This document shows, piece after piece, positions 53,988-63,793 of a stretch of DNA of 64,000 bases. How positions within the stretch are numbered: the first letter of the stretch is position 1; every line of letters starts with the position of its first letter. The notes under the pieces are model-generated. The model had not been told where the DNA came from. It did no database searches and saw nothing but the letters and a program-made list of their open reading frames with translations. Location of the stretch: NCBI GenBank assembly GCA_029260295.1, contig JAJDDN010000008.1, positions 310,001-374,000 of the forward strand, written 5' to 3'. This DNA comes from Phycisphaerales bacterium. Lineage in GTDB: Bacteria > Planctomycetota > Phycisphaerae > Phycisphaerales > UBA1924. The position numbers and the translations under genes are program-made.

Positions 53988-55321
53988 GTCCAGCGACTTT
54001 GTGCGCTTCTGTTTTCGGTGTTTGAGAGGCTGTTCACGCGGCTTTCTTTCGCTCTCTGACTTGGAACTCAAGCCGGAAGAGCTTCGGGTCACCGCGTGTA
54101 GATTGACGTGTTACTCTGATCTCTGGTTCGATGCCTCCGTTCACTGTATAAAGGATAGGACTCTGATCCACGCCTCTGATTCTATTCTCCGGTGTGTGTG
54201 CACCCGGTGCTCATTGTACCAGATCCGATACGCGTTGAGTCTTCTCTGCATTCCATCGGTTGACGGGATCATCCAGGTCGATCGCATCCATGATTTCAAG
54301 GTTCGGAAGAATCGCTCGATCTTCCCGTTGAGCTGCCAGACACGGACCTTGCCCCGTACCCGTACATGGATGATCCCTTGGTGTTCGCAGGCCTCCTTGA
54401 AGCGCCTCTGAAACTGCGAGCCATGGTCGCTGATCAGAAGCATAGGAGACGCTTCCGATCTTCTCACCGATTCCTTGATCAGTAGATTCATGGCATTTGT
54501 GTTCGGTCTACGGGCGAAGGCTCTGATCGCCAGCAACTTGCGCGAATATCCATCCAGCACCGCCGCGATCACGAATCGCTTCCAAAGCACACGGATCTCG
54601 GTTATGTCGGTGTGCCAGACATGGTGGGGGTGGTTAGGCTTGAGCAGATGATGGGCCCGGAGTGACGGCGGGGACGGCGCAGGCAAATTCCTCCGCCCCG
54701 GCTCGACAAACTCCTCTTCGAGTATCCGGCGGACCGAGGCCCTGCTGATCTGGATCCAGGCCCGCACCATCTGCCTCGCGATGGATCGTGATCCGAAGTC
54801 TTTCTCAGGGCACAATCTTCTGGTCTGATGGACTGTTTGGCGGACTCTTTCATGCAGCCGATTCCAAGGCGGAGATCCGAGTAATCGATCCGCTCGTTCC
54901 TTATTGAGCAGGGCTTTCTTCCACGAGCTGATGGTATTAGCATGCAGCCCAAATCGATCGGCTGTATGTTTCGTGCTCCACTGTCTCAGGGCAGCCAACT
55001 GCATGATCTGTGCCCGCTGCTCGGGGGTGAAGTGGGGACGCTCACGGGGTGGTTTGGCCAGTCTGCTCGACCGGAAGACATCAGCTCCCTTTCGGGCAGG
55101 CGGATTCGGTATACAGATGGTCCCGCTGGGCCTTCATCCTGACTAATGCAAGTGGATCGGTCAATGCACGAGCTCTGACAATGCCGTATGATTGGGATAT
55201 GGCCGTAGAAACAGAGTCAACCAGGTGCCACACGCTTCGGGATCGAATACTGTATATGGCTGATGCTATTGCTGTTTTTAAACAAGAATCGACGATTTGG
55301 GATCATCACAAAGTGCTGGCC
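53988..55321 (-). mobile_element. IS element with IS3-like DDE transposase
   Basis: Imperfect terminal inverted repeats GTCCAGCGACTTTGTG (53988-54003) and, on the other strand, GGCCAGCACTTTGTG (55307-55321) enclose one transposase gene; length about 1.33 kb. It begins 8 nt after the attR repeat ends. A target-site duplication could not be recognised. The exact ends are uncertain by a few bases. Confidence 0.7.
54141..55004 (-). CDS. DDE (rve-fold) transposase, start unclear
   Basis: 287 residues from the first ATG. Integrase core with D, D, E in HHVWHTDITEIRVLWKRFVI, LLISDHGSQFQRRFKEACEH and NGKIERFFRTLKSW, as in IS3-type ORFB/IS481 transposases. The helix-turn-helix at the N-terminus is cut by the ATG. 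The frame remains open upstream for about 43 codons with convincing HTH-like sequence (RERPHFTPEQRAQIMQLAAL) but no ATG, GTG or TTG. An ATG in another frame near 55139 suggests either a frameshift lesion or programmed frameshifting. Confidence 0.75.
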   Translation of the reverse strand: MQLAALRQWSTKHTADRFGLHANTISSWKKALLNKERADRLLGSPPWNRLHERVRQTVHQTRRLCPEKDFGSRSIARQMVRAWIQISRASVRRILEEEFVEPGRRNLPAPSPPSLRAHHLLKPNHPHHVWHTDITEIRVLWKRFVIAAVLDGYSRKLLAIRAFARRPNTNAMNLLIKESVRRSEASPMLLISDHGSQFQRRFKEACEHQGIIHVRVRGKVRVWQLNGKIERFFRTLKSWMRSTWMIPSTDGMQRRLNAYRIWYNEHRVHTHRRIESEAWIRVLSFIQ

Positions 55322-56021: not shown

Positions 56022-57629
56022 TTATTCAAGTATCAAATGATCCCAACTGAGCCCGAATTTTGCTAAATACTTCCGTACCCGATCAGAATCGTTTGTAGAC
56101 GACCGCCGGACGCGTGATGCGGCGAATAACTTTCGTCCGGCATCAGAAAGCGAGTTCGAATTTCGACACACTTCCAGTACAGATGCTAGTTGAGTTTGAT
56201 CAAAGAGATCTATCTCGGAGATTTGATCCTGGGTGAGCAGCTCTGAGAGCAAGCCGTTGTTGTTCGACTGGTCAGGGTCTTTCCATAGTGTGCATAGTCG
56301 GTTGGTTTCTTCCTCAACCGTGTCAACCGTGATGCGCCCGCCTGGTGCGAGAGTGGACATGCGGGTCAGGGCGGCGTTTAGGTCCCGGAAGTTCCCAGGC
56401 CAGGTTGCTTCTGGGGAGGTTGCAAAATCAAGAAAGCGGCGATGGGCTTCTTTGCTGAATCTCGCTTGCTGATTTCGGCTTTGGGAGAGCCGTTCGAGTT
56501 CGTACTCGATGTTTGGCTCGATGTCCTCGGGGCGATCGCGCAGTGCGGGGAGCTCAAATGTCCAAAGATTGATCCGTGAGAGCAGGTCGTCGCGGAATGT
56601 GCCTTGGCGGACATGCTCGATCAGGTCCCGATTTGTCCCTGCGATGAGCTGGAAGTCGCTCGATACTTCGACATCTGAGCCGAGTGGTGTAAATCGTTTC
56701 TCTTCTATTGCTCGAAGGAGCATGGCCTGCTCATCTACGCCTAGCTCGCCAATTTCGTCTAAGAATAGCGTTCCTCCATCTGCTCTACGAAGGAGTCCGG
56801 GGCGATCAGTCACCGCGCCGGTGAACGCGCCCTTTTTATGCCCGAAGAGCGTGGACATCGCTGAGTCGCCACGGATGGTGGCGCAGTTGACTTCAACAAG
56901 ATGGCCTGTGACGAGGTGTCTGTGCTTGCGGAGTTCGAAGATGCGATTGGCGAGCCGGGACTTGCCCGCACCTGTTGGCCCGGTGAGCAGGATCGGGTCG
57001 GTTGTCCGTGCGGCGACATGCTCAATGCGTTCTATAAGTGAGTTGAAAGCCTTGTTTCGGGTCTCGATACCGTCCTTGAGAGATTCGACCGCGTCTTCGT
57101 ACTCACGCTCAAATCGTGATGCGAGCCGATCATACTTTGTGAGATCAAGATCGATGATCTGGAACCGCCCGGGAGCTTCTTTAGTGCCTCGTGGTGGGGA
57201 GGTCTGGATGAGCTTGGCGGGGAAGTAGCTTGTTTCGGTGAGCAAGAAGTTGCAGATTTGGGCGACATGGGTGCCGGTAGTAATGTGTACGAGGTAGTCC
57301 TCGTGGTCGGTATCAAACGGGTACGCCTTGGCGAAGTCGTGGAGGGTGGTGTACACCTCCTCGAAGTCCCATGCGTCACGCATCTCCACGATGTGCCTGA
57401 CAACGGTTGTTTCTGGGGAGACTGAGAGGATGTCCTTCTCAACTTGCTCGGCAAGTGCCGTTGCGCGTTTGTTGTGGATGAGTTCGAGCCGATCGACTAC
57501 GAAGTCTTCGTGTTGGCACAACGAGACCGTTGGCCTCCAGCGTTCCCATCGCTTGGAGCCTTTTCCGGTGTCCAGGGTGGTGCCGAGGAGTCCGATGATC
57601 ACAGTTGGTTTGTGCTTTGGTGGTGACAT
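56022..57629 (-). CDS. rtcR: RtcR, CARF-domain sigma-54 activator of RNA repair
   Basis: 535 residues. The N-terminal CARF-type domain (about 1-185, TVIIGLLGTTLDTGKGSKRW; YLVHITTGTHVAQICNFLLT) is thought to sense cyclic-phosphate-ended RNA fragments. The AAA+ domain has Walker A GPTGAGKS (217-224), GAFTGA (267-272, the sigma-54 contact loop) and Walker B GGTLFLDEIGEL. The C-terminal region has a Fis-like helix. It activates the divergent -24/-12 promoter upstream of the RNA/slipin/rtcB/rtcA genes. Complete and intact. Confidence 0.96.
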   Translation of the reverse strand: MSPPKHKPTVIIGLLGTTLDTGKGSKRWERWRPTVSLCQHEDFVVDRLELIHNKRATALAEQVEKDILSVSPETTVVRHIVEMRDAWDFEEVYTTLHDFAKAYPFDTDHEDYLVHITTGTHVAQICNFLLTETSYFPAKLIQTSPPRGTKEAPGRFQIIDLDLTKYDRLASRFEREYEDAVESLKDGIETRNKAFNSLIERIEHVAARTTDPILLTGPTGAGKSRLANRIFELRKHRHLVTGHLVEVNCATIRGDSAMSTLFGHKKGAFTGAVTDRPGLLRRADGGTLFLDEIGELGVDEQAMLLRAIEEKRFTPLGSDVEVSSDFQLIAGTNRDLIEHVRQGTFRDDLLSRINLWTFELPALRDRPEDIEPNIEYELERLSQSRNQQARFSKEAHRRFLDFATSPEATWPGNFRDLNAALTRMSTLAPGGRITVDTVEEETNRLCTLWKDPDQSNNNGLLSELLTQDQISEIDLFDQTQLASVLEVCRNSNSLSDAGRKLFAASRVRRSSTNDSDRVRKYLAKFGLSWDHLILE

Positions 57630-57657: not shown

Positions 57658-57741
57658 AATATACATCATAACGACAGCATTTGAATCAGCTCATATCTTG
57701 CAAAAACAGCCGTTATGCCGTTATAAGCGTGTTTGCCTAGT

Positions 57742-57758
57742 TTGGCACAGCAACTGCA
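57742..57758 (+). promoter_or_regulatory. sigma-54 (-24/-12) promoter of the RNA-repair island
   Basis: TTGGCAC-N5-CTGCA, with GG at 57744-57745 and GC at 57756-57757, exactly 10 nt apart as required by RpoN. Predicted start near 57769. Lies between divergent rtcR and the structured RNA. Confidence 0.88.
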
Positions 57759-57817
57759 TAGGTGTATCCCAGCTCAACAAGCTGCCTCTTTGACAACTGA
57801 GACAACATAATCGATCA

Positions 57818-57892
57818 GGATCGCACATTGGCCATGCCGGGGGGAGGGATTGCATCTCCCCCCGGCTGAGGGTTCGATTCCCTCTGCATCCA
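57818..57892 (+). ncRNA. tRNA-like domain with extended anticodon-arm hairpin
   Basis: Acceptor GGAT-c-GCA pairs with TGCATCC (one bulged C), followed by a short D-like hairpin. A 10-bp stem CCGGGGGGAG/CTCCCCCCGG with the 9-nt loop GGATTGCAT replaces the anticodon arm. A perfect T arm GAGGG-TTCGATT-CCCTC and a discriminator A complete it. It is not a functional elongator tRNA but would look tRNA-like to T-arm/acceptor-binding proteins. Confidence 0.7.
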
Positions 57893-57979
57893 TTCCGCTT
57901 CGGTTCATCGTCCAGCGGCTCACGCTCCTTTGGAGTTCGCGAGTCCCGCGACTTGGGTTCTCCCGGTGTGCCAGAGCGT

Positions 57980-58052
57980 GTTGCGCTAGCTCAAATGGTA
58001 GAGCAATGAGCTGATAACTCATCTGTTGCGGGTTCGAGTCCCGCACGCACCA
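57980..58052 (+). tRNA. tRNA-Ile(GAT)-like domain, degenerate acceptor
   Basis: D arm GCTC/GAGC, anticodon arm ATGAG-CTGATAA-CTCAT (anticodon GAT), T arm GCGGG-TTCGAGT-CCCGC are all sound. The acceptor GTTGCGC/ACGCACC has two mismatches (2:71 and 7:66), or can pair with a 2-nt bulge. It is embedded in the large RNA, so it may be a mimic rather than a true isoleucine tRNA. Confidence 0.6.
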
Positions 58053-58486
58053 CAGGTAAGGTCGAAAGACCGAGGGGTTCGAATCCCCACCAGACTAAAC
58101 ATCTGGATCTATGCGTGGATTGAGGGCGGACTGATCGCGTGAACACAGCCGAATCGTGGTTCACTATGGCGCTTGCGTCATGATTGCTATGCATCGGCAC
58201 CAATGACTCAGCTCGCGGCTCGGTGGATACCGACTCATCACTCAAGGCTGACTACGGCTTGGCGTTGTAATCATCTGCACTTCGGTGCGGGTGTGAGCAC
58301 CGCCCAAAATGTACAAATCTTTGAGTGGCGAATCTTAAACCAAGTCCCGTTGAAGAACCGGGTGGACACGCGTGAGGACGCGCTCAATCTGCTTTAAATG
58401 ATCATGTTGTCTCAGTTGTCAAACAGTGTTTGTTTGATCTGATTGAAGTGCCTCATGCACAAACGCCCAACGAAAGGAGCCAAGCC

Positions 58487-59614
58487 ATGAGAAAGACTAT
58501 CCGTATCCGTAAGCATGAACTCGGACTGTGGTTCCGCCACTCCGAACTCTACCAAGTCCTCGAGCCAGGGAAGCACGCCGTTTGGTCGCTCCCATTTCGA
58601 GGCAGAATCAATGACTTTGAGGTTCTCAACACCCTCAGCCCTCGATTTGAGCACGAAGATCTCAAGGCCTTGGTACGCGATCAATGCGTCGCGTCACGGC
58701 TGAGCGTTGTCGACCTCAAGGACACCGAGCGAGCTTTGGTCTGGATTGATGGTCGCCTCGGCGCAATCCTTGCCGCTGGTGTGCACGCATTCTGGAATCA
58801 GAACGCAGAAGTGGTTGTCGAGCGTTTCAATGTGAGTGCTGGTCGTTTCGAGCACCCAAAGCTCGAGACCATCGAGAACTTCCCCGGCGGCGTTCGGTTC
58901 TTCACCGGCGTCCGGGTCGAGTCGCACGAGCAGGTCATGTTGTTCAAGGACGGCAAGCTTGTTGATCAACTCGGTGCAGGCCGATACGCGTTCTGGCGCG
59001 GTGGCCCAAACTTCACCTGGAAGTCCGTCGATCTGCGCGAGCAGGTCGAGGATATCCAAGGCCAAGAAATCATGACGGCTGACAAGGTGACCCTGCGGGT
59101 AAACCTCGTCGTGACGCATCGAGTCACCGATGCGGTCAAGGCAGTCACCGAAGTGGTGGACTGGTCACAGGCGTTGTACCGCGAGGCCCAGCTCGAACTC
59201 CGAGCCGCCATTGGCGGGCGATCGCTCGAGAAGTTGCTTGCCGACAAGGACGAAGTTGGAGGCGAGATCAAGAATCGGCTTGCAAAGCGCGTCGCCGAGT
59301 TCGGGGTTTCGGTCTCTGGTGTCGGTCTGCGAGACATCATCTTGCCGGGCGACATGAAGGTGATTCTTAATCAGGTCATCGTCGCCGAGAAGCAGGCGGA
59401 GGCAAACCTGATCCGTCGGCGAGAGGAAACCGCCGCCGCACGGTCCCAGGCGAATACCGCCAAGTTGCTTGAGCAGAATCCAGTGCTTGCACGCATGAAG
59501 GAACTCGAAGCCCTGCAGGAAATCCTGCGAGGAACTCAAGCAACCTTCGTGCTAGGTCAGGGTGATTTGAGCGAGCAGATCAGCAGCCTCATCAAGCGTG
59601 AGGCTGTGAAGTAA
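58487..59614 (+). CDS. slipin (SPFH/band 7 protein) of the RNA-repair island
   Basis: 375 residues from ATG 58487, with AAAGGAG 7 nt upstream. SPFH domain: RFFTGVRVESHEQVMLFKDG, KVTLRVNLVVTHRVTDAVKA, VDWSQALYREAQLELRAAIG, VAEFGVSVSGVGLRDIILPG, then a coiled-coil tail (NQVIVAEKQAEANLIRRREE). No clear membrane helix at the N-terminus. Slipins next to rtcB occur in other RNA-repair operons; their role there is unknown. The island's transcript reaches it through the large RNA. Confidence 0.92.
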   Translation: MRKTIRIRKHELGLWFRHSELYQVLEPGKHAVWSLPFRGRINDFEVLNTLSPRFEHEDLKALVRDQCVASRLSVVDLKDTERALVWIDGRLGAILAAGVHAFWNQNAEVVVERFNVSAGRFEHPKLETIENFPGGVRFFTGVRVESHEQVMLFKDGKLVDQLGAGRYAFWRGGPNFTWKSVDLREQVEDIQGQEIMTADKVTLRVNLVVTHRVTDAVKAVTEVVDWSQALYREAQLELRAAIGGRSLEKLLADKDEVGGEIKNRLAKRVAEFGVSVSGVGLRDIILPGDMKVILNQVIVAEKQAEANLIRRREETAAARSQANTAKLLEQNPVLARMKELEALQEILRGTQATFVLGQGDLSEQISSLIKREAVK

Positions 59615-59618
59615 AGAC

Positions 59619-59648
59619 GCGTCCCGCCCGTGAAGGTGGGTGGGACGC
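59619..59648 (+). other. hairpin after the slipin gene
   Basis: GCGTCCC / GGGACGC stem with inner pairing of CCC with GGG, followed only by TTTG. Possible partial terminator or processing site between slipin and downstream genes. Confidence 0.5.
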
Positions 59649-59683
59649 TTTGAAGAATGAGCAAGAACGATTGGAGTTTTAGT

Positions 59684-60061
59684 ATGGCTGCGGACTATGA
59701 AATCTTGCTGCGATTCATTGATTGGGCCGTTGTCAAGAATGCTCGTCAACGCTACCGAGCAGTTCTTGGAACGAAACATGGTGAAGCTGTGTTTACAGGT
59801 GCATTGTGCCATAAGTTCGAGTCGCAGGTGCGTACACAGATCATTGTGCCAAATCGTCCAATTGGTTCTTGGGATAGGCCATGTAGGCTGTACCGTGCCG
59901 GGCATGATTTTGGAAAAAGGTTTGATTCTATCAATGAAGCATATGAAGTGGTTGAAATGAGTGACAGTTGGCTGATCGTGGCGGAAGAATCAGACTATGG
60001 CCTTCATAGAGCCGAGACTTATTTCGATAGTACTCAACATCTCGCCCGTCGGAGTCCTTGA
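59684..60061 (+). CDS. unknown protein between slipin and tRNA cluster
   Basis: 125 residues from ATG 59684, with GGAG 7 nt upstream; an ATG at 59657 would add 9 residues. Soluble, mixed alpha/beta, with TKHGEAVFTGALCHKFESQV and MSDSWLIVAEESDYGLHRAE. No family recognised. Stop is 8 nt before the tRNA-Pro gene, so it shares the transcript with the tRNAs. Confidence 0.65.
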   Translation: MAADYEILLRFIDWAVVKNARQRYRAVLGTKHGEAVFTGALCHKFESQVRTQIIVPNRPIGSWDRPCRLYRAGHDFGKRFDSINEAYEVVEMSDSWLIVAEESDYGLHRAETYFDSTQHLARRSP

Positions 60062-60069
60062 ACTAGATT

Positions 60070-60143
60070 CTGGGTGAAGCTCAGCTTGGCAGAGCGTGTG
60101 CCTTGGATGCACAAAGTCGTAGGTTCGAATCCTGCCACTCAGA
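60070..60143 (+). tRNA. tRNA-Pro(TGG)
   Basis: Acceptor CTGGGTG/CACTCAG, D arm GCTC/GAGC, anticodon arm TGTGC-CTTGGAT-GCACA (anticodon TGG), T arm GTAGG-TTCGAAT-CCTGC. Position 8 is A rather than the near-universal T. Confidence 0.88.
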
Positions 60144-60158
60144 TTAGAAGGAAGATAA

Positions 60159-60232
60159 GGCTCTGTAGCCCAACTGGCAGAGGCGGTGGTTTTAGAAACC
60201 ACTCAGTGCAGGTTCGAATCCTGTCAGAGCCA
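60159..60232 (+). tRNA. tRNA with anticodon TAG (Leu codon CUA), short variable arm
   Basis: Acceptor GGCTCTG/CAGAGCC, anticodon arm GTGGT-TTTAGAA-ACCAC (anticodon TAG), T arm GCAGG-TTCGAAT-CCTGT. The variable region is only 5 nt (TCAGT), although bacterial leucine tRNAs normally carry a long variable arm. The D stem is GCC/GGC. Confidence 0.85.
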
Positions 60233-60244
60233 TTGAGAAAAATT

Positions 60245-60318
60245 TGCCCTGTAGCTCAGTTGGATAGAGTGCCGCACTACGAATGCGGAGGCCGCGGGTT
60301 CGAATCCTGCCGGGGCAG
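60245..60318 (+). tRNA. tRNA-Arg(ACG)
   Basis: Acceptor TGCCCTG/CGGGGCA, anticodon arm CCGCA-CTACGAA-TGCGG (anticodon ACG), T arm GCGGG-TTCGAAT-CCTGC. The G6-C pair is G-U type (T6-G67). Confidence 0.9.
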
Positions 60319-60333
60319 TTAGGAATGAAGATT

Positions 60334-60407
60334 GGCTCCGTAGCCCAATCGGTAGAGGCAGTGGTCTTAAAAACCACAAGGTGCTGGTTCGAATCCAGCC
60401 GGAGTCA
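60334..60407 (+). tRNA. tRNA with anticodon TAA (Leu codon UUA), short variable arm
   Basis: Acceptor GGCTCCG/CGGAGTC, anticodon arm GTGGT-CTTAAAA-ACCAC (anticodon TAA), T arm GCTGG-TTCGAAT-CCAGC. Close in sequence to the TAG tRNA 175 nt upstream and, like it, lacks the long variable arm expected for a leucine tRNA. Confidence 0.85.
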
Positions 60408-60800
60408 TTTGCGGAACGGTTTGGCGACAACCTGCCAGCCGTCTTCGTATATGACATACCCAGGTCGCTTTGTGGTGATTTGGTCAAAAACAATATCGTA
60501 CTCACGAAGGATCTCAATCATGGCACGCACGCGACGAATCGGCTCTTTAGCTCTTGGATGGAACCAAGATATTGCTCGTTCATTCTTGTCTTCTTTAAGG
60601 ATTGCTGGCGATTTCAGATGCATTTTTAGCCACGATAGATGTCGTTCGAGCTCTTCGGAGTGGTATGGAGTGAGTTGGTTTGAATCTCTCAGTTCATTCA
60701 CAGCCATAAAAACCCCAGAAGGCCTATGAGAATAGTCATTCTGGATCCGAGTCTGGAATCGTAAGTAAGTTACACTTGATTGTTGATCAGGCATTCCCAT
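60405..60800 (-). CDS. unknown protein encoded antisense inside the RNA-repair island
   Basis: 131 residues, helical and charged: YLRFQTRIQNDYSHRPSGVF, YHSEELERHLSWLKMHLKSP, ERAISWFHPRAKEPIRRVRA and TTKRPGYVIYEDGWQVVAKP. GAGG lies about 8 nt before the ATG at 60800. The composition and codon use look like a real gene. Its end overlaps the last tRNA by 3 nt and its start is only 27 nt from the divergent rtcB start, so read-through transcription of the island would run antisense to it. Confidence 0.75.
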   Translation of the reverse strand: MGMPDQQSSVTYLRFQTRIQNDYSHRPSGVFMAVNELRDSNQLTPYHSEELERHLSWLKMHLKSPAILKEDKNERAISWFHPRAKEPIRRVRAMIEILREYDIVFDQITTKRPGYVIYEDGWQVVAKPFRK

Positions 60801-60827: not shown

Positions 60828-62354
60828 ATGAATATTGAGAACAATACTAGCCCATTAATCGAGACCGGCGAAGCAACCGCGATGCTGCCGCTTCCCAATA
60901 ATCAGAAACCGATCACCGTCATCGGAACGGAATCAATACGCGAAACCTTCGATGCGCCATGTTTGCAGCAGGCGATCAACTCGGCGATGGCGCCGGGCGT
61001 CTCGCAGGTGGTTCTTAACCCTGATGCACATGTTGGATACGGCGCACCAGTCGGCTGCGTCATGGCTTCGCCGACACATATCTACCCCGGCCCAGTCGGT
61101 GTGGACATCAAGTGCTCGATGTCGCTGCTTGCGGTCGATATCGACGAGGACGCGATTGTGGATCGAAAGATCCGCCGAGCATTGATCGAAGCGATCTGTG
61201 AGCGTACGCCTACAGGCACCGGTCGAGGGCAGCGTCATGTCAAGAAGGCGCGTCCTGTAACCGAAGAACTCGGTCGCCAGCTGGTGGTCGAGGGCGCGTC
61301 GGTTGATGTTTGCGAGCAGCTCGGAATCCCACCTGAGTGGGCACAGCGGTGTGAGGACAGCGCCCATGTTGGTCACGACGGAACGCATGATGCGCTTTCC
61401 GCTCGGCTGGAGCTGTTGTGCAACCATCCGCAGTTCAACACTGGAAAGCGTCTCCGATTCGGAGAGCGGTTCGCAGGAAAGATGCGTCAACTCGGCTCCT
61501 ACGGTGGTGGAAACCACTTCGGCGAGTGCGAAGTCGTCCGGGTTGGCGAGTCAGAACGAAGCAAGAAGGCCGCCGAGGTTTTCGGGCTTCGTGACGGCGG
61601 CGTCGCGTTCCTCTCGCACTGCGGATCACGCGGCTTTGGTCACGACCTGGCAGCAGGGCAGTTCCGACTTCTGCAAGATCACTTCGCCAAGTGGGATATC
61701 CCATTGCCCGGCGGCGATCGGAACCTCGTTTGTGCACCTCTGGGAACACCAGAGGCCGATGCATACATCGACGATATGTCGCTTGGTGCGAACTTTGCTA
61801 CGGTTAACCACCTCTTGATTAACTCGCTCGTACTCGAGGCATTTCAAGAGATCTTCCCCGGCATCGATGGTCGGCTGGTGTACTTCATCAGCCACAACAT
61901 CGCACGCCAGGAAGTCGTCAACGATCGGCTCGAGTGGGTCCACCGCAAGGGGGCGACCCGCGCATTCCCTGCGGGGCATCACGGTCTAAAGGGCACGCCG
62001 TTCGCCGATACCGGGCATCCGATTTTGCTCCCTGGGAACCCTCAGGATGGGTCGGCGGTCATGGTTGCCGATGCAGGCGCTGCATTGTCATGCTACAGCG
62101 TCAACCACGGTGCCGGGCGTGCGATGTCGCGTACAAAGGCAAAGAATCAGCTTGATCAGATTGAAGTCGATCAATCGTTCAAGGATCGTGATATCCTTTC
62201 GAACTGCCGAAACTACCCTATCGACGAAGCCCCGGCTGCCTACAAAGACTTTGAAGAAGTCCTGAAGTCAGTCAAGACTGCAGGCCTTGCAAGCGAGGTT
62301 GCTCGATTGGATGCGAAGTTTGTGATTAAAGATGGAGATAAAGCGGATGACTAA
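60828..62354 (+). CDS. rtcB: RNA-splicing ligase RtcB
   Basis: 508 residues from ATG 60828; an in-frame ATG at 60780 is antisense to the divergent gene. RtcB joins RNA 3'-phosphate or 2',3'-cyclic-phosphate ends to 5'-OH ends using GTP and Mn2+. Motifs: NPDAHVGYGAPVGCVMAS, GPVGVDIKCSM (metal Asp and Cys), GGGNHFGECEVV, SHCGSRGFGHDLA, SHNIARQEVV and YSVNHGAGRAMSRTKAKNQL with the guanylylated His at residue 427. All catalytic residues are present. Confidence 0.97.
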   Translation: MNIENNTSPLIETGEATAMLPLPNNQKPITVIGTESIRETFDAPCLQQAINSAMAPGVSQVVLNPDAHVGYGAPVGCVMASPTHIYPGPVGVDIKCSMSLLAVDIDEDAIVDRKIRRALIEAICERTPTGTGRGQRHVKKARPVTEELGRQLVVEGASVDVCEQLGIPPEWAQRCEDSAHVGHDGTHDALSARLELLCNHPQFNTGKRLRFGERFAGKMRQLGSYGGGNHFGECEVVRVGESERSKKAAEVFGLRDGGVAFLSHCGSRGFGHDLAAGQFRLLQDHFAKWDIPLPGGDRNLVCAPLGTPEADAYIDDMSLGANFATVNHLLINSLVLEAFQEIFPGIDGRLVYFISHNIARQEVVNDRLEWVHRKGATRAFPAGHHGLKGTPFADTGHPILLPGNPQDGSAVMVADAGAALSCYSVNHGAGRAMSRTKAKNQLDQIEVDQSFKDRDILSNCRNYPIDEAPAAYKDFEEVLKSVKTAGLASEVARLDAKFVIKDGDKADD

Positions 62355-62769
62355 TTCGGATACAAAGCTCATGAAGGTCATTTGTAGGCATTGCCGTAAA
62401 GATTTGTCACATCCACTGAGAGCGTTTACATCTGATGATCCGATTCGATTATTGGATCATGAAGCTCCATTTGATCCGGGGCTGATTTCTAGTGTTCAAG
62501 AGTTCAGATGCAGAGCAGGTGGGTTCCTCTACAAGTTTCCAGCAGATTGGATTGTAAACAATGCATCCGTGATTAATTGCACAGCCACTGATTCAACATT
62601 TGGGTGCTGTGGGTGTACTCCCAAAAGCGAGCCAAATCTCATGTGCAAGTGCGGCAGCATGGTTGGATTTGAATGGAGTGATTGTCTGGATGTTCGGTTT
62701 ACGATTTTCGAAAACATGATGGTTGGCATAGTACCAGTATCTTCTCCATCCGATGAGAGTGAATCTTGA
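62347..62769 (+). CDS. cysteine-rich unknown protein between rtcB and rtcA
   Basis: 140 residues from ATG 62347 (GGAG 9 nt upstream), overlapping rtcB by 8 nt. Cys pairs CRHC near the N-terminus and CCGC and CKCG near the middle suggest a zinc-ribbon-like metal site (KVICRHCRKDLSHPLRAF; DSTFGCCGCTPKSEPNLMCK). Cytosolic. Position between ligase and cyclase suggests a function on RNA or in recruiting substrate; no family recognised. Confidence 0.7.
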   Translation: MTNSDTKLMKVICRHCRKDLSHPLRAFTSDDPIRLLDHEAPFDPGLISSVQEFRCRAGGFLYKFPADWIVNNASVINCTATDSTFGCCGCTPKSEPNLMCKCGSMVGFEWSDCLDVRFTIFENMMVGIVPVSSPSDESES

Positions 62770-62770
62770 G

Positions 62771-63793
62771 ATGAAACCAATACAAATAAATGGCTCAACT
62801 GGCGAGGGCGGCGGGCAGATCCTTCGGAGTGCATTAGCACTTTCGATGGTGACCGCTCGCCCTTTTTGCATTGAGAATATTCGGGCCAACCGGCCAAAGC
62901 CCGGGCTACTGCGCCAGCACCTTACCGCGGTCAACGCTGCGGCTGCTGTGAGTAATGCTCAAGTCATGGGGGCTGAACTCGGGTCATCTACAGTCGAGTT
63001 TGTTCCTGGTGCAGTCAAAGGCGGCGAGTACTCATTTTCGATCGGGTCTGCAGGGAGCACGACGCTTGTGCTTCAGACGATCCTTCCTGCATTGATGATC
63101 GCTTCATCGCCTTCGGTGGTGATGATTGAGGGGGGGACGCACAATACCCATGCACCAAGTGTCGATTTTTTGTGTAAGTCGTTTTTACCGATCATCGAAC
63201 GGATGGGGCCGCGTGTGCGTGTAGAGATTGAGCGACACGGGTTTTATCCGGCTGGAGGCGGCCGGATCCGGGTTGAAATTGATCCAACGAAGAAGCTCAC
63301 GCCAGTTTCAATTATGGAGCGTGGTGATATAGTTGAACAAACGGCAACAGCAACAGTCGCTGGGCTATCCCCGGACATTGCCAAGCGAGAGTTGGAAGTG
63401 GTTGCCAAGAAGCTCGAGTGGGATGAGGATTCGCTCCGCATCGAGCAACTCGCCGATTCAGTCGGGCCAGGGAATGTGCTTAGCATCGGGATACAAAGTG
63501 AGCATGTGACCGAGGTCTTTACCGGTTTCGGCGAGCGTGGCCGATCCGCTGAGCGTGTGGCCAAATCAACAGTGGCGCAAGTCAATCATTATTTGCATAA
63601 GGGTACTCCAGTTTGGAGTCATCTCGCTGATCAACTCATGCTCCCGTTTGCAATGGCAGGAGCGGGGGAGTTCAGTACTTGTGCTCTGACTCCACACTCA
63701 GAGACGAATGCATCAGTGATCGAGCAATTTTTACAGATCAAAATTCAATCGAAAGAACTCGATCGGGGATTGAAAGCAGTCCGGATCATATAG
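62771..63793 (+). CDS. rtcA: RNA 3'-terminal phosphate cyclase
   Basis: 340 residues from ATG 62771, 1 nt after the previous stop; an upstream in-frame ATG at 62753 adds 6 residues. RtcA converts RNA 3'-phosphate to a 2',3'-cyclic phosphate through adenylylation. Signatures: INGSTGEGGGQILRSALALS, KPGLLRQHLTAVNAAAAVSN, SIGSAGSTTLVLQTILPALM, RHGFYPAGGGRIRVEI and LADQLMLPFAMAGAGEFSTC. With this start the His in TPHSETN is residue 309, the number of the known nucleophile in the E. coli enzyme. Confidence 0.96.
   Translation: MKPIQINGSTGEGGGQILRSALALSMVTARPFCIENIRANRPKPGLLRQHLTAVNAAAAVSNAQVMGAELGSSTVEFVPGAVKGGEYSFSIGSAGSTTLVLQTILPALMIASSPSVVMIEGGTHNTHAPSVDFLCKSFLPIIERMGPRVRVEIERHGFYPAGGGRIRVEIDPTKKLTPVSIMERGDIVEQTATATVAGLSPDIAKRELEVVAKKLEWDEDSLRIEQLADSVGPGNVLSIGIQSEHVTEVFTGFGERGRSAERVAKSTVAQVNHYLHKGTPVWSHLADQLMLPFAMAGAGEFSTCALTPHSETNASVIEQFLQIKIQSKELDRGLKAVRII

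Follow-up and report, generated by a model that had tools for sequence, protein, structure and literature searches.

The RNA region studied here occupies positions 57769-58486 of a 64,000-nt stretch (the window) from a 2.9-Mb assembly with an estimated completeness of 92%. Beside it and divergently oriented lies rtcR (56022-57629, minus strand), encoding a sigma-54 activator with an RtcR (CARF-type) domain (Pfam PF06956, E 1.2e-82; PF00158, Sigma54_activat), and a 17-nt imperfect inverted repeat between the two (57667-57717, 76% complementary) is a possible RtcR upstream activating site. Downstream of a sigma-54 promoter and about 640 nt of RNA region, the operon continues with slipin (SPFH/Band 7; 58487-59614, plus strand; PF01145, Band_7, E 7.2e-28; stomatin chains matched in PDB), an ORF of 134 aa, four tRNA genes identified with ARAGORN and Rfam (Pro(tgg), Leu(tag), Arg(acg) and Leu(taa); 60069-60408, plus strand), rtcB (60828-62354, plus strand; PF01139), an ORF of 145 aa and rtcA (62768-63793, plus strand; PF01137). 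Divergent rtcR, a sigma-54 promoter, rtcB and rtcA, the marks of an RtcR-controlled RNA repair operon, are all present. ORFs at 59657-60061 (plus strand) and 60405-60800 (minus strand) had no Pfam match and are kept in relatives (70% in L032; 74% in L113). An ORF resembling, by eye, an IS3-type transposase or integrase lies about 1 kb past the rtcR end (54141-55004, minus strand).

Bacterial tRNA-Leu is expected to carry a long variable arm. The two operon tRNAs with Leu anticodons (60159-60232, tag; 60333-60408, taa) are 74-76 nt long and lack one, and comparably short Leu tRNAs were seen in L031, L032, L035, L113 and L122. Large arrays of tRNA genes also follow slipin at other slipin-RtcR loci, with 13 ARAGORN genes in L041 and 18 in L062.

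The -24/-12 (sigma-54) promoter described in the initial annotation was located by promoter search and sequence reading as TGGCACAGCAACTGCA (57743-57758, plus strand), downstream of the divergent rtcR and upstream of slipin. That annotation had also described a 20-bp inverted repeat with extra pairs past a 4-nt bulge, and inverted-repeat searching returned it as two arms of 27 nt each, 93% complementary (57786-57812 and 58400-58426, plus strand), which the minimum-energy fold joins through 20 pairs, the 4-nt bulge and further pairs. The arms scored 51.8 for pairing against a maximum of 33.2 among 200 mononucleotide shuffles, and the 715-nt strand folded with z = -8.39 relative to 20 shuffles. 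Three ORFs of at least 70 aa lie wholly inside 57774-58397; the two of them searched against Pfam had no match.

Between the arms the RNA (plus strand) was divided into several domains. A boxA-like sequence, CTCTTTGACAA (57786-57796), forms the first part of the 5' arm. Domain 1 (57818-57892) is a D-armless tRNA-like fold made of acceptor-like ends, an 11-bp hairpin (57836-57866) and a T-arm (57867-57884), the latter two returned by repeat search and the whole assembled by eye; in L178 its slot is filled by a full-length tRNA-like sequence (by eye). Domain 2 (57907-57967) has the form GTCCAGCGGC-hairpin-GAGTCCCG..GGGTTCT and is conserved before the tRNA-like domain in an alignment of 20 loci (A2). 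The tRNA-like domain itself (57980-58053; ARAGORN; Rfam tRNA, 55.3 bits) has the anticodon triplet GAT and 5 of 7 acceptor pairs, and is followed by domain 4 (58053-58094), a GNRA hairpin plus T-arm read from the sequence and assembled by eye. The tRNA-like folds and the GNRA-hairpin segment proposed earlier are thus present, as one full cloverleaf and two mini-tRNA folds recognized by eye (domains 1 and 4). A hairpin plus T-arm between the tRNA-like domain and the inner helix was found in the window's family, and a domain 4-like element was seen by eye in proteobacterial L065, L090 and L096. L114 (~205-400 nt from the rtcR start) and L122 (~666-900 nt) have, in place of domain 1, a short and basic stretch that may be coding, and the two stretches resemble each other by eye.

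The 3' half is closed by an inner helix, P1 (58115-58128 with 58379-58392), identified by helix comparison and covariation. It surrounds most of the conserved core (58182-58395) matched by a sequence model, R1 (65.2 bits, E 3e-18, this sequence being itself a training row). The core carries two motifs: the nearly invariant G motif GGATACCG (58225-58232) and the F motif CTTAAACCAAGTCCCGT (58334-58350; consensus CTCAAGN6CTCCGC), the latter starting 67-128 nt beyond the start of the former. Their columns are mostly invariant or nearly so in alignment A1, whose 24 loci (21 from the same phylum, two deltaproteobacterial-type and one ignavibacterial) were picked for having both motifs. The order of elements in relatives is, in the 5' part, boxA and outer 5' arm where present, domain 2 (CCAGCGGC...GTGTTCCG...GGGTTCT) and tRNA-like domain, and, in the 3' part, P1 5' strand, GGATACCG, F motif, P1 3' strand and outer 3' arm.

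Relatives were collected with RtcR queries (best 80 of 108 named loci; 34 of 301 genomes of the order) and a slipin query (matches in 54 of 392 genomes of the phylum, with 30 loci taken, and in 14 of 163 genomes of the family). The closest RtcR relatives (86-87%) among the best 80 of 108 were L031, a Phycisphaerales MAG, and L032, an unclassified bacterial MAG. At 17 loci (16 distinct, L033 being identical to L124), slipin came first among slipin, rtcB and rtcA, 548-1360 nt from the rtcR start. Of 27 new loci obtained with slipin (L147-L173), 25 had a tRNA-like element upstream of slipin by ARAGORN or motif (L153 and L168 being the exceptions), and 25 had no rtcR in the retrieved stretch (rtcR was present in L154 and L157).

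In the window, L113, L147, L148 and L176, the last three from congeners, the outer stem has a common position but is built from three different sequences. Across these five loci, which represent about three lineages, 90.3% of the cells of its 27 pairs are paired and 12 of the 27 pairs are changed on both sides; sliding the arms lowered pairing to 25-42%. For P1, 88.3% of cells are paired in 11 family loci and 9 of 14 pairs are changed on both sides. Shuffled controls equalled the outer stem in 0 of 500 cases on four of five measures and in 88 of 500 on the fifth (further pair types), and equalled P1 in 0 of 500 on four measures and 1 of 500 on the fifth, with the proviso that both helices were proposed from the sequences tested and that relatedness inflates such tests. 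Over 23 loci, P1 strands paired better with their own partners than with those of other loci by ungapped helix score (mean 28.0 vs 23.4; 0 of 20000 permutations), although the own score lay above every cross score in only 2 of the 23; RNAduplex energies computed with interior loops gave no separation between own and cross pairings, and RNAalifold on the all-phyla alignment A1 returned four pairs, none changed on both sides. Judged by sequence comparison, this is a conserved structured RNA in which compensatory changes have preserved both the outer stem and the inner helix. The large structured RNA first proposed is accordingly upheld, its closing stem being kept by compensatory changes in five family loci.

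The tRNA-like domain matches the RF00005 cloverleaf with T, D and anticodon arms, but it lacks the 7-bp acceptor stem and the anticodon stable across relatives that a working tRNA would have. In 42 loci with assignable arms (of 43 placed), 4.69 of 7 acceptor pairs were present on average, against 6.58 in 62 other motif-found tRNAs treated by the same method; the inner three pairs are kept (2.79 vs 2.94) and the outer four are not (1.90 vs 3.65). Another control, of 71 ARAGORN tRNAs, gave 6.73 of 7; this figure is biased towards the control, as good stems are preselected by ARAGORN and the best out of three registers was used. In the 35 loci whose anticodon stem has four or more pairs, 22 anticodon triplets were found (automatic assignment, a few uncertain), and CCA followed the domain in 7 of 42 loci. 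Because anticodons vary and the outer acceptor stem is open, the domain is probably no decoding tRNA.

Comparison with known RNAs was made with Rfam covariance models, and only tRNA scored above gathering in 57769-58486 and in 17 relatives; tmRNA and the large RNAs of Rfam had no match in the region at gathering score. A sub-threshold tmRNA match (24.4 bits, gathering 47) lies downstream of slipin at L085:750-838. GOLLD, ROOL, HEARO and OLE are large ornate bacterial RNAs, and GOLLD is tRNA-associated; the slipin-linked RNA is like them in size and complexity, and like GOLLD in its tRNA association, but these models had no match at E<=1 in the window, nor any in 8 relatives. Leaders of rRNA operons carry boxA and a long-range processing stem. 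The slipin-linked RNA likewise starts with a boxA-like sequence and has a long closing stem around structured RNA, but has no Rfam rRNA match, and its 5' arm includes boxA itself. YrlA of rsr-yrlBA-rtcBA operons is also a non-coding RNA with a tRNA-like module in an RtcR-controlled operon, adjoining the gene of a dedicated protein; the slipin-linked RNA differs in being several times larger and in having slipin as its partner gene. YrlA (RF02553) had no match inside 57769-58486 at E<=1 and none above gathering in the 17 relatives, its sub-threshold matches spanning pairs of neighbouring operon tRNAs, and no TROVE match to Rsr/Ro60 was found in the genome (assembly 92% complete). In Anabaena, a tRNA operon is under joint repression by TrcR with rtcB and a slipin gene (PMC10272220). 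This trn operon is similar in that tRNA genes are co-controlled with rtcB and slipin and respond to translational stress, and differs in having functional tRNA genes, the repressor TrcR and a megaplasmid location; the excerpted parts of that report mention no such RNA (PMC10272220). The initial annotation knew of no described RNA of this architecture; none came to light in Rfam 15 or in full-text searches of open-access papers either (a subscription paper may exist), and the slipin-linked RNA appears to be an undescribed family.

Linkage to slipin was measured with R1, which was built from the 24 A1 sequences without structure and run with five candidates scored per genome and strict filters, so that matches elsewhere may be missed. 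It matched 31 of 392 genomes of the phylum at E<=1e-4. Each of the 30 matches at E<=6.4e-8 precedes a slipin match of the same contig and strand by 53-2519 nt, in 26 cases by less than 600 nt (53-509 nt); 14 of the 30 are outside the training set (hypergeometric 9.5e-16), two of these (G584 and G655) sharing a genus with training rows. The 31st (G016, E 5.7e-5) had no slipin at the cut-off of the slipin query. R1 had no match in 24 of the 54 slipin genomes, nor at any of the 4 plasmid-record slipin loci. Non-training matches at E<1e-5 among fetched loci (L049, L158, L169 and L173) likewise lie at slipin, and the best match at a slipin-less locus among 81 + 70 sources was L088 (E 0.024), followed by L127 (0.12). 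G007 and G017 carry the RNA without an RtcR match, so RtcR control is not general. By genomic position, it is slipin and not the rtc promoter that the RNA accompanies. Of the co-control with RtcB and RtcA envisaged at the outset, the RtcR/sigma-54 context is real, but the RNA is tied to slipin.

An exact pattern of the core was also searched for in the 392 genomes and gave 21 matches against 14 for its reversed control, so that most of them are close to noise; at 10 of the 21, R1 has a match as well. Pattern matches on viral contigs (24) were taken as chance, since in the 330 nt upstream none has TAGCTC and four have GTTCGA by itself, and a GATACCG in L054 was rejected as a motif copy since it lies within the rtcB gene of that locus.

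Four close relatives (L031, L032, L116 and L121) have neither RNA core nor slipin. In L031 the alignment to the window jumps from 57786 to 59550, a single deletion that removes the RNA and most of slipin. In L032 two separate deletions have taken the core (57995-58381) and slipin (58594-59637); boxA, domains 1 and 2 and the outer stem, with 25 of 27 pairs, are retained. Within this L032 leader (157-407 nt from the rtcR start), a changed letter of the outer stem is matched on the other side, and the tRNA-like domain is gone. For L121 and L116, similarity to L113 is confined to two parts: the leader 5' end, as far as ~302 and ~250 nt from the rtcR start, respectively, and the tRNA region past slipin. 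Such joint loss of RNA and slipin fits a joint function or a cis role alike.

In other RtcR operons a different gene holds the place of slipin. After 9 of the 107 distinct RtcR loci had been set aside as too short, 98 were counted: 21 had slipin, 40 an Rsr-like first ORF, none both and 37 neither (Fisher 2.8e-6, a statistic weakened by shared ancestry). All seven Rsr-like ORFs sampled match Ro60 vWA/TROVE, and a tblastn recount over the 107 loci, within 8 kb, gave 45 Rsr, 21 slipin and none with both. G074 and G210 each have the two modules at different places, RtcR-Rsr at one locus and slipin with the RNA at another, so the modules are not exclusive genome-wide. The best reading, which we hold tentatively and at slightly less than an even chance, is that the RNA is an induced tRNA mimic dedicated to slipin, the counterpart of the Rsr-Y RNA pair.

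One alternative, which we consider unlikely, is a cis-acting leader (riboswitch or attenuator) that governs slipin translation, perhaps by sensing tRNA as a T-box does. The short spacing in 26 of the 30 loci and the common strand in all 30 favour such a leader, and the joint loss with slipin fits it too. Against it, in the other 4 loci the RNA and the matched stretch of slipin are 1.2-2.5 kb apart (three of them partial slipin matches, for which the true distance is maybe ~0.2 kb less), two tRNA genes separate the RNA from slipin in L157, and in L159 the RNA has a terminator-like hairpin after it (3 sites, both strands counted, vs 0.7 in shuffles). Moreover, the outer stem closes ahead of the slipin ribosome site, and T-box models had no match in the window at E<=1.

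A similarly small probability is given to a specialised sink or decoy that acts without slipin, the two sharing expression only through a common stress response. A tRNA mimic whose anticodons drift would suit this idea, as would the proposal that YrlA is a competitive inhibitor of a nuclease, put forward in passages of PMC7790460. Linkage to slipin nevertheless survives where RtcR is not adjoining, and L032 lost core and slipin by separate deletions.

How the RNA might be released bears on a further alternative. Ten of 15 leaders tested begin with a boxA-like sequence. Among 8 rRNA loci of relatives, CTCTTTGACA stands 323-363 nt ahead of the 16S gene in three, CTCTTTGAAA stands ahead of 16S in three more relatives, and no boxA was found ahead of 16S in two; in the same-genus G226, CTCTTTGACAA itself lies 355 nt upstream of 16S rRNA, the 16S gene of the assembly studied being missing. 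In the genome, exact CTCTTTGACAA has 5 occurrences and its reversed control 3; around the other four sites there is neither an Rfam match nor a tRNA gene. Since boxA and the leader 5' end persist in L032 and L121, both without core and slipin, boxA is not exclusive to the RNA. By analogy with rRNA leaders, boxA and the enclosing stem suggest rRNA-like antitermination and RNase III release, a simpler route than circularisation by RtcB. RNase III release cannot be universal, because 6 of the 11 family loci tested have no outer stem (L118, L124 and L178, which keep boxA, and L114, L122 and L149, which have none). Circularisation by RtcB, to which the presence of rtcB in the operon and a closing stem that would bring the ends together lend some appeal, is very unlikely, as the RNA occurs in L147 and L148 with no rtcB within 1.5 kb on either side of slipin.

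That the RNA consists of decaying tRNA genes of the operon's tRNA array is more improbable still: tRNA genes do flank the RNA or slipin in L041, L062, L149 and L165-L167, and domain 1 resembles a full tRNA in L178 by eye, but the invariant non-tRNA core motifs shared across phyla, the covarying helices and the constant position relative to slipin led us to disfavour tRNA debris. A MITE with terminal repeats, suggested by a 27-nt inverted repeat around ~600 nt, can practically be dismissed, as relatives have arms of different sequence at the same place and, apart from the two arms, the best genomic matches to the 18-nt repeat core have 3 mismatches (3 sites), whereas a MITE would be expected in multiple copies.

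A related-looking arrangement occurs in Escherichia coli and Citrobacter, where slipin and a nucleotidyltransferase gene come after a sigma-54-like promoter (by eye) and a short leader that contains a T-arm and GTGTTCCG. Leader and slipin are present in 1624 of 5426 complete E. coli genomes (~30%), 1621 of them over at least 80% of the query; the match in E. coli H17 covers the first 228 query bases only. No RNA is annotated at the leader in E. coli 042 (L246:4001-5449), where a zeta-toxin-family gene comes next on the opposite strand and no rtcR lies beside. R1 had no match in L242-L245, so the kinship of the E. coli leader with the slipin-linked RNA is a suggestion only. In L245, a Subdoligranulum plasmid record without an R1 match, the 430 nt upstream of slipin contain T-arms, GGATACCG and CTCCGC (by eye), and from this clostridial locus the RNA family may reach into Bacillota.

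For the reading as an induced tRNA mimic dedicated to slipin, sequence supports a conserved RNA, its slipin linkage and joint loss, a probably non-decoding tRNA-like domain, boxA and a sigma-54 promoter beside RtcR; induction, release, slipin binding and a decoy or scaffold role are steps that we infer with falling confidence. RtcR is activated by damaged tRNAs, according to passages of PMC7790460. Cleaved tRNAs, as they accumulate, would lead RtcR to switch the operon on, and boxA-type antitermination may carry the polymerase across ~640 untranslated bases. RNase III could then cut the closing stem and free the RNA from the slipin-rtcBA message, and RNA and slipin might assemble into a ribonucleoprotein at the membrane. 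There the tRNA mimic would engage factors that handle tRNA; its most likely part would be to bait anticodon nucleases or to serve damaged tRNAs as a docking scaffold, while RtcA and RtcB would carry out repair and the operon tRNAs would replace losses. Of the decoy, scaffold or substrate role originally imagined, the conserved tRNA-mimicking RNA has stood, and the role itself is conjectural.

The slipin-RNA pair would thereby fill the slot that Rsr and Y RNA occupy in other RtcR operons. It is conceivable, though doubtful, that bacteria have, alongside Ro60-Y RNA, a second widespread class of ribonucleoprotein that mimics tRNA, formed by slipin and its RNA and built at the membrane on tRNA damage, with the short E. 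coli leader included. To our knowledge, the slipin/SPFH family has no known RNA partner. If the proposal is true, a new large RNA family would extend across several phyla, tied to slipin/SPFH proteins, and RNA repair operons would gain a second RNA-protein arm besides Ro60-Y RNA. Its function could be tested directly through the locus of similar appearance that many E. coli strains carry.
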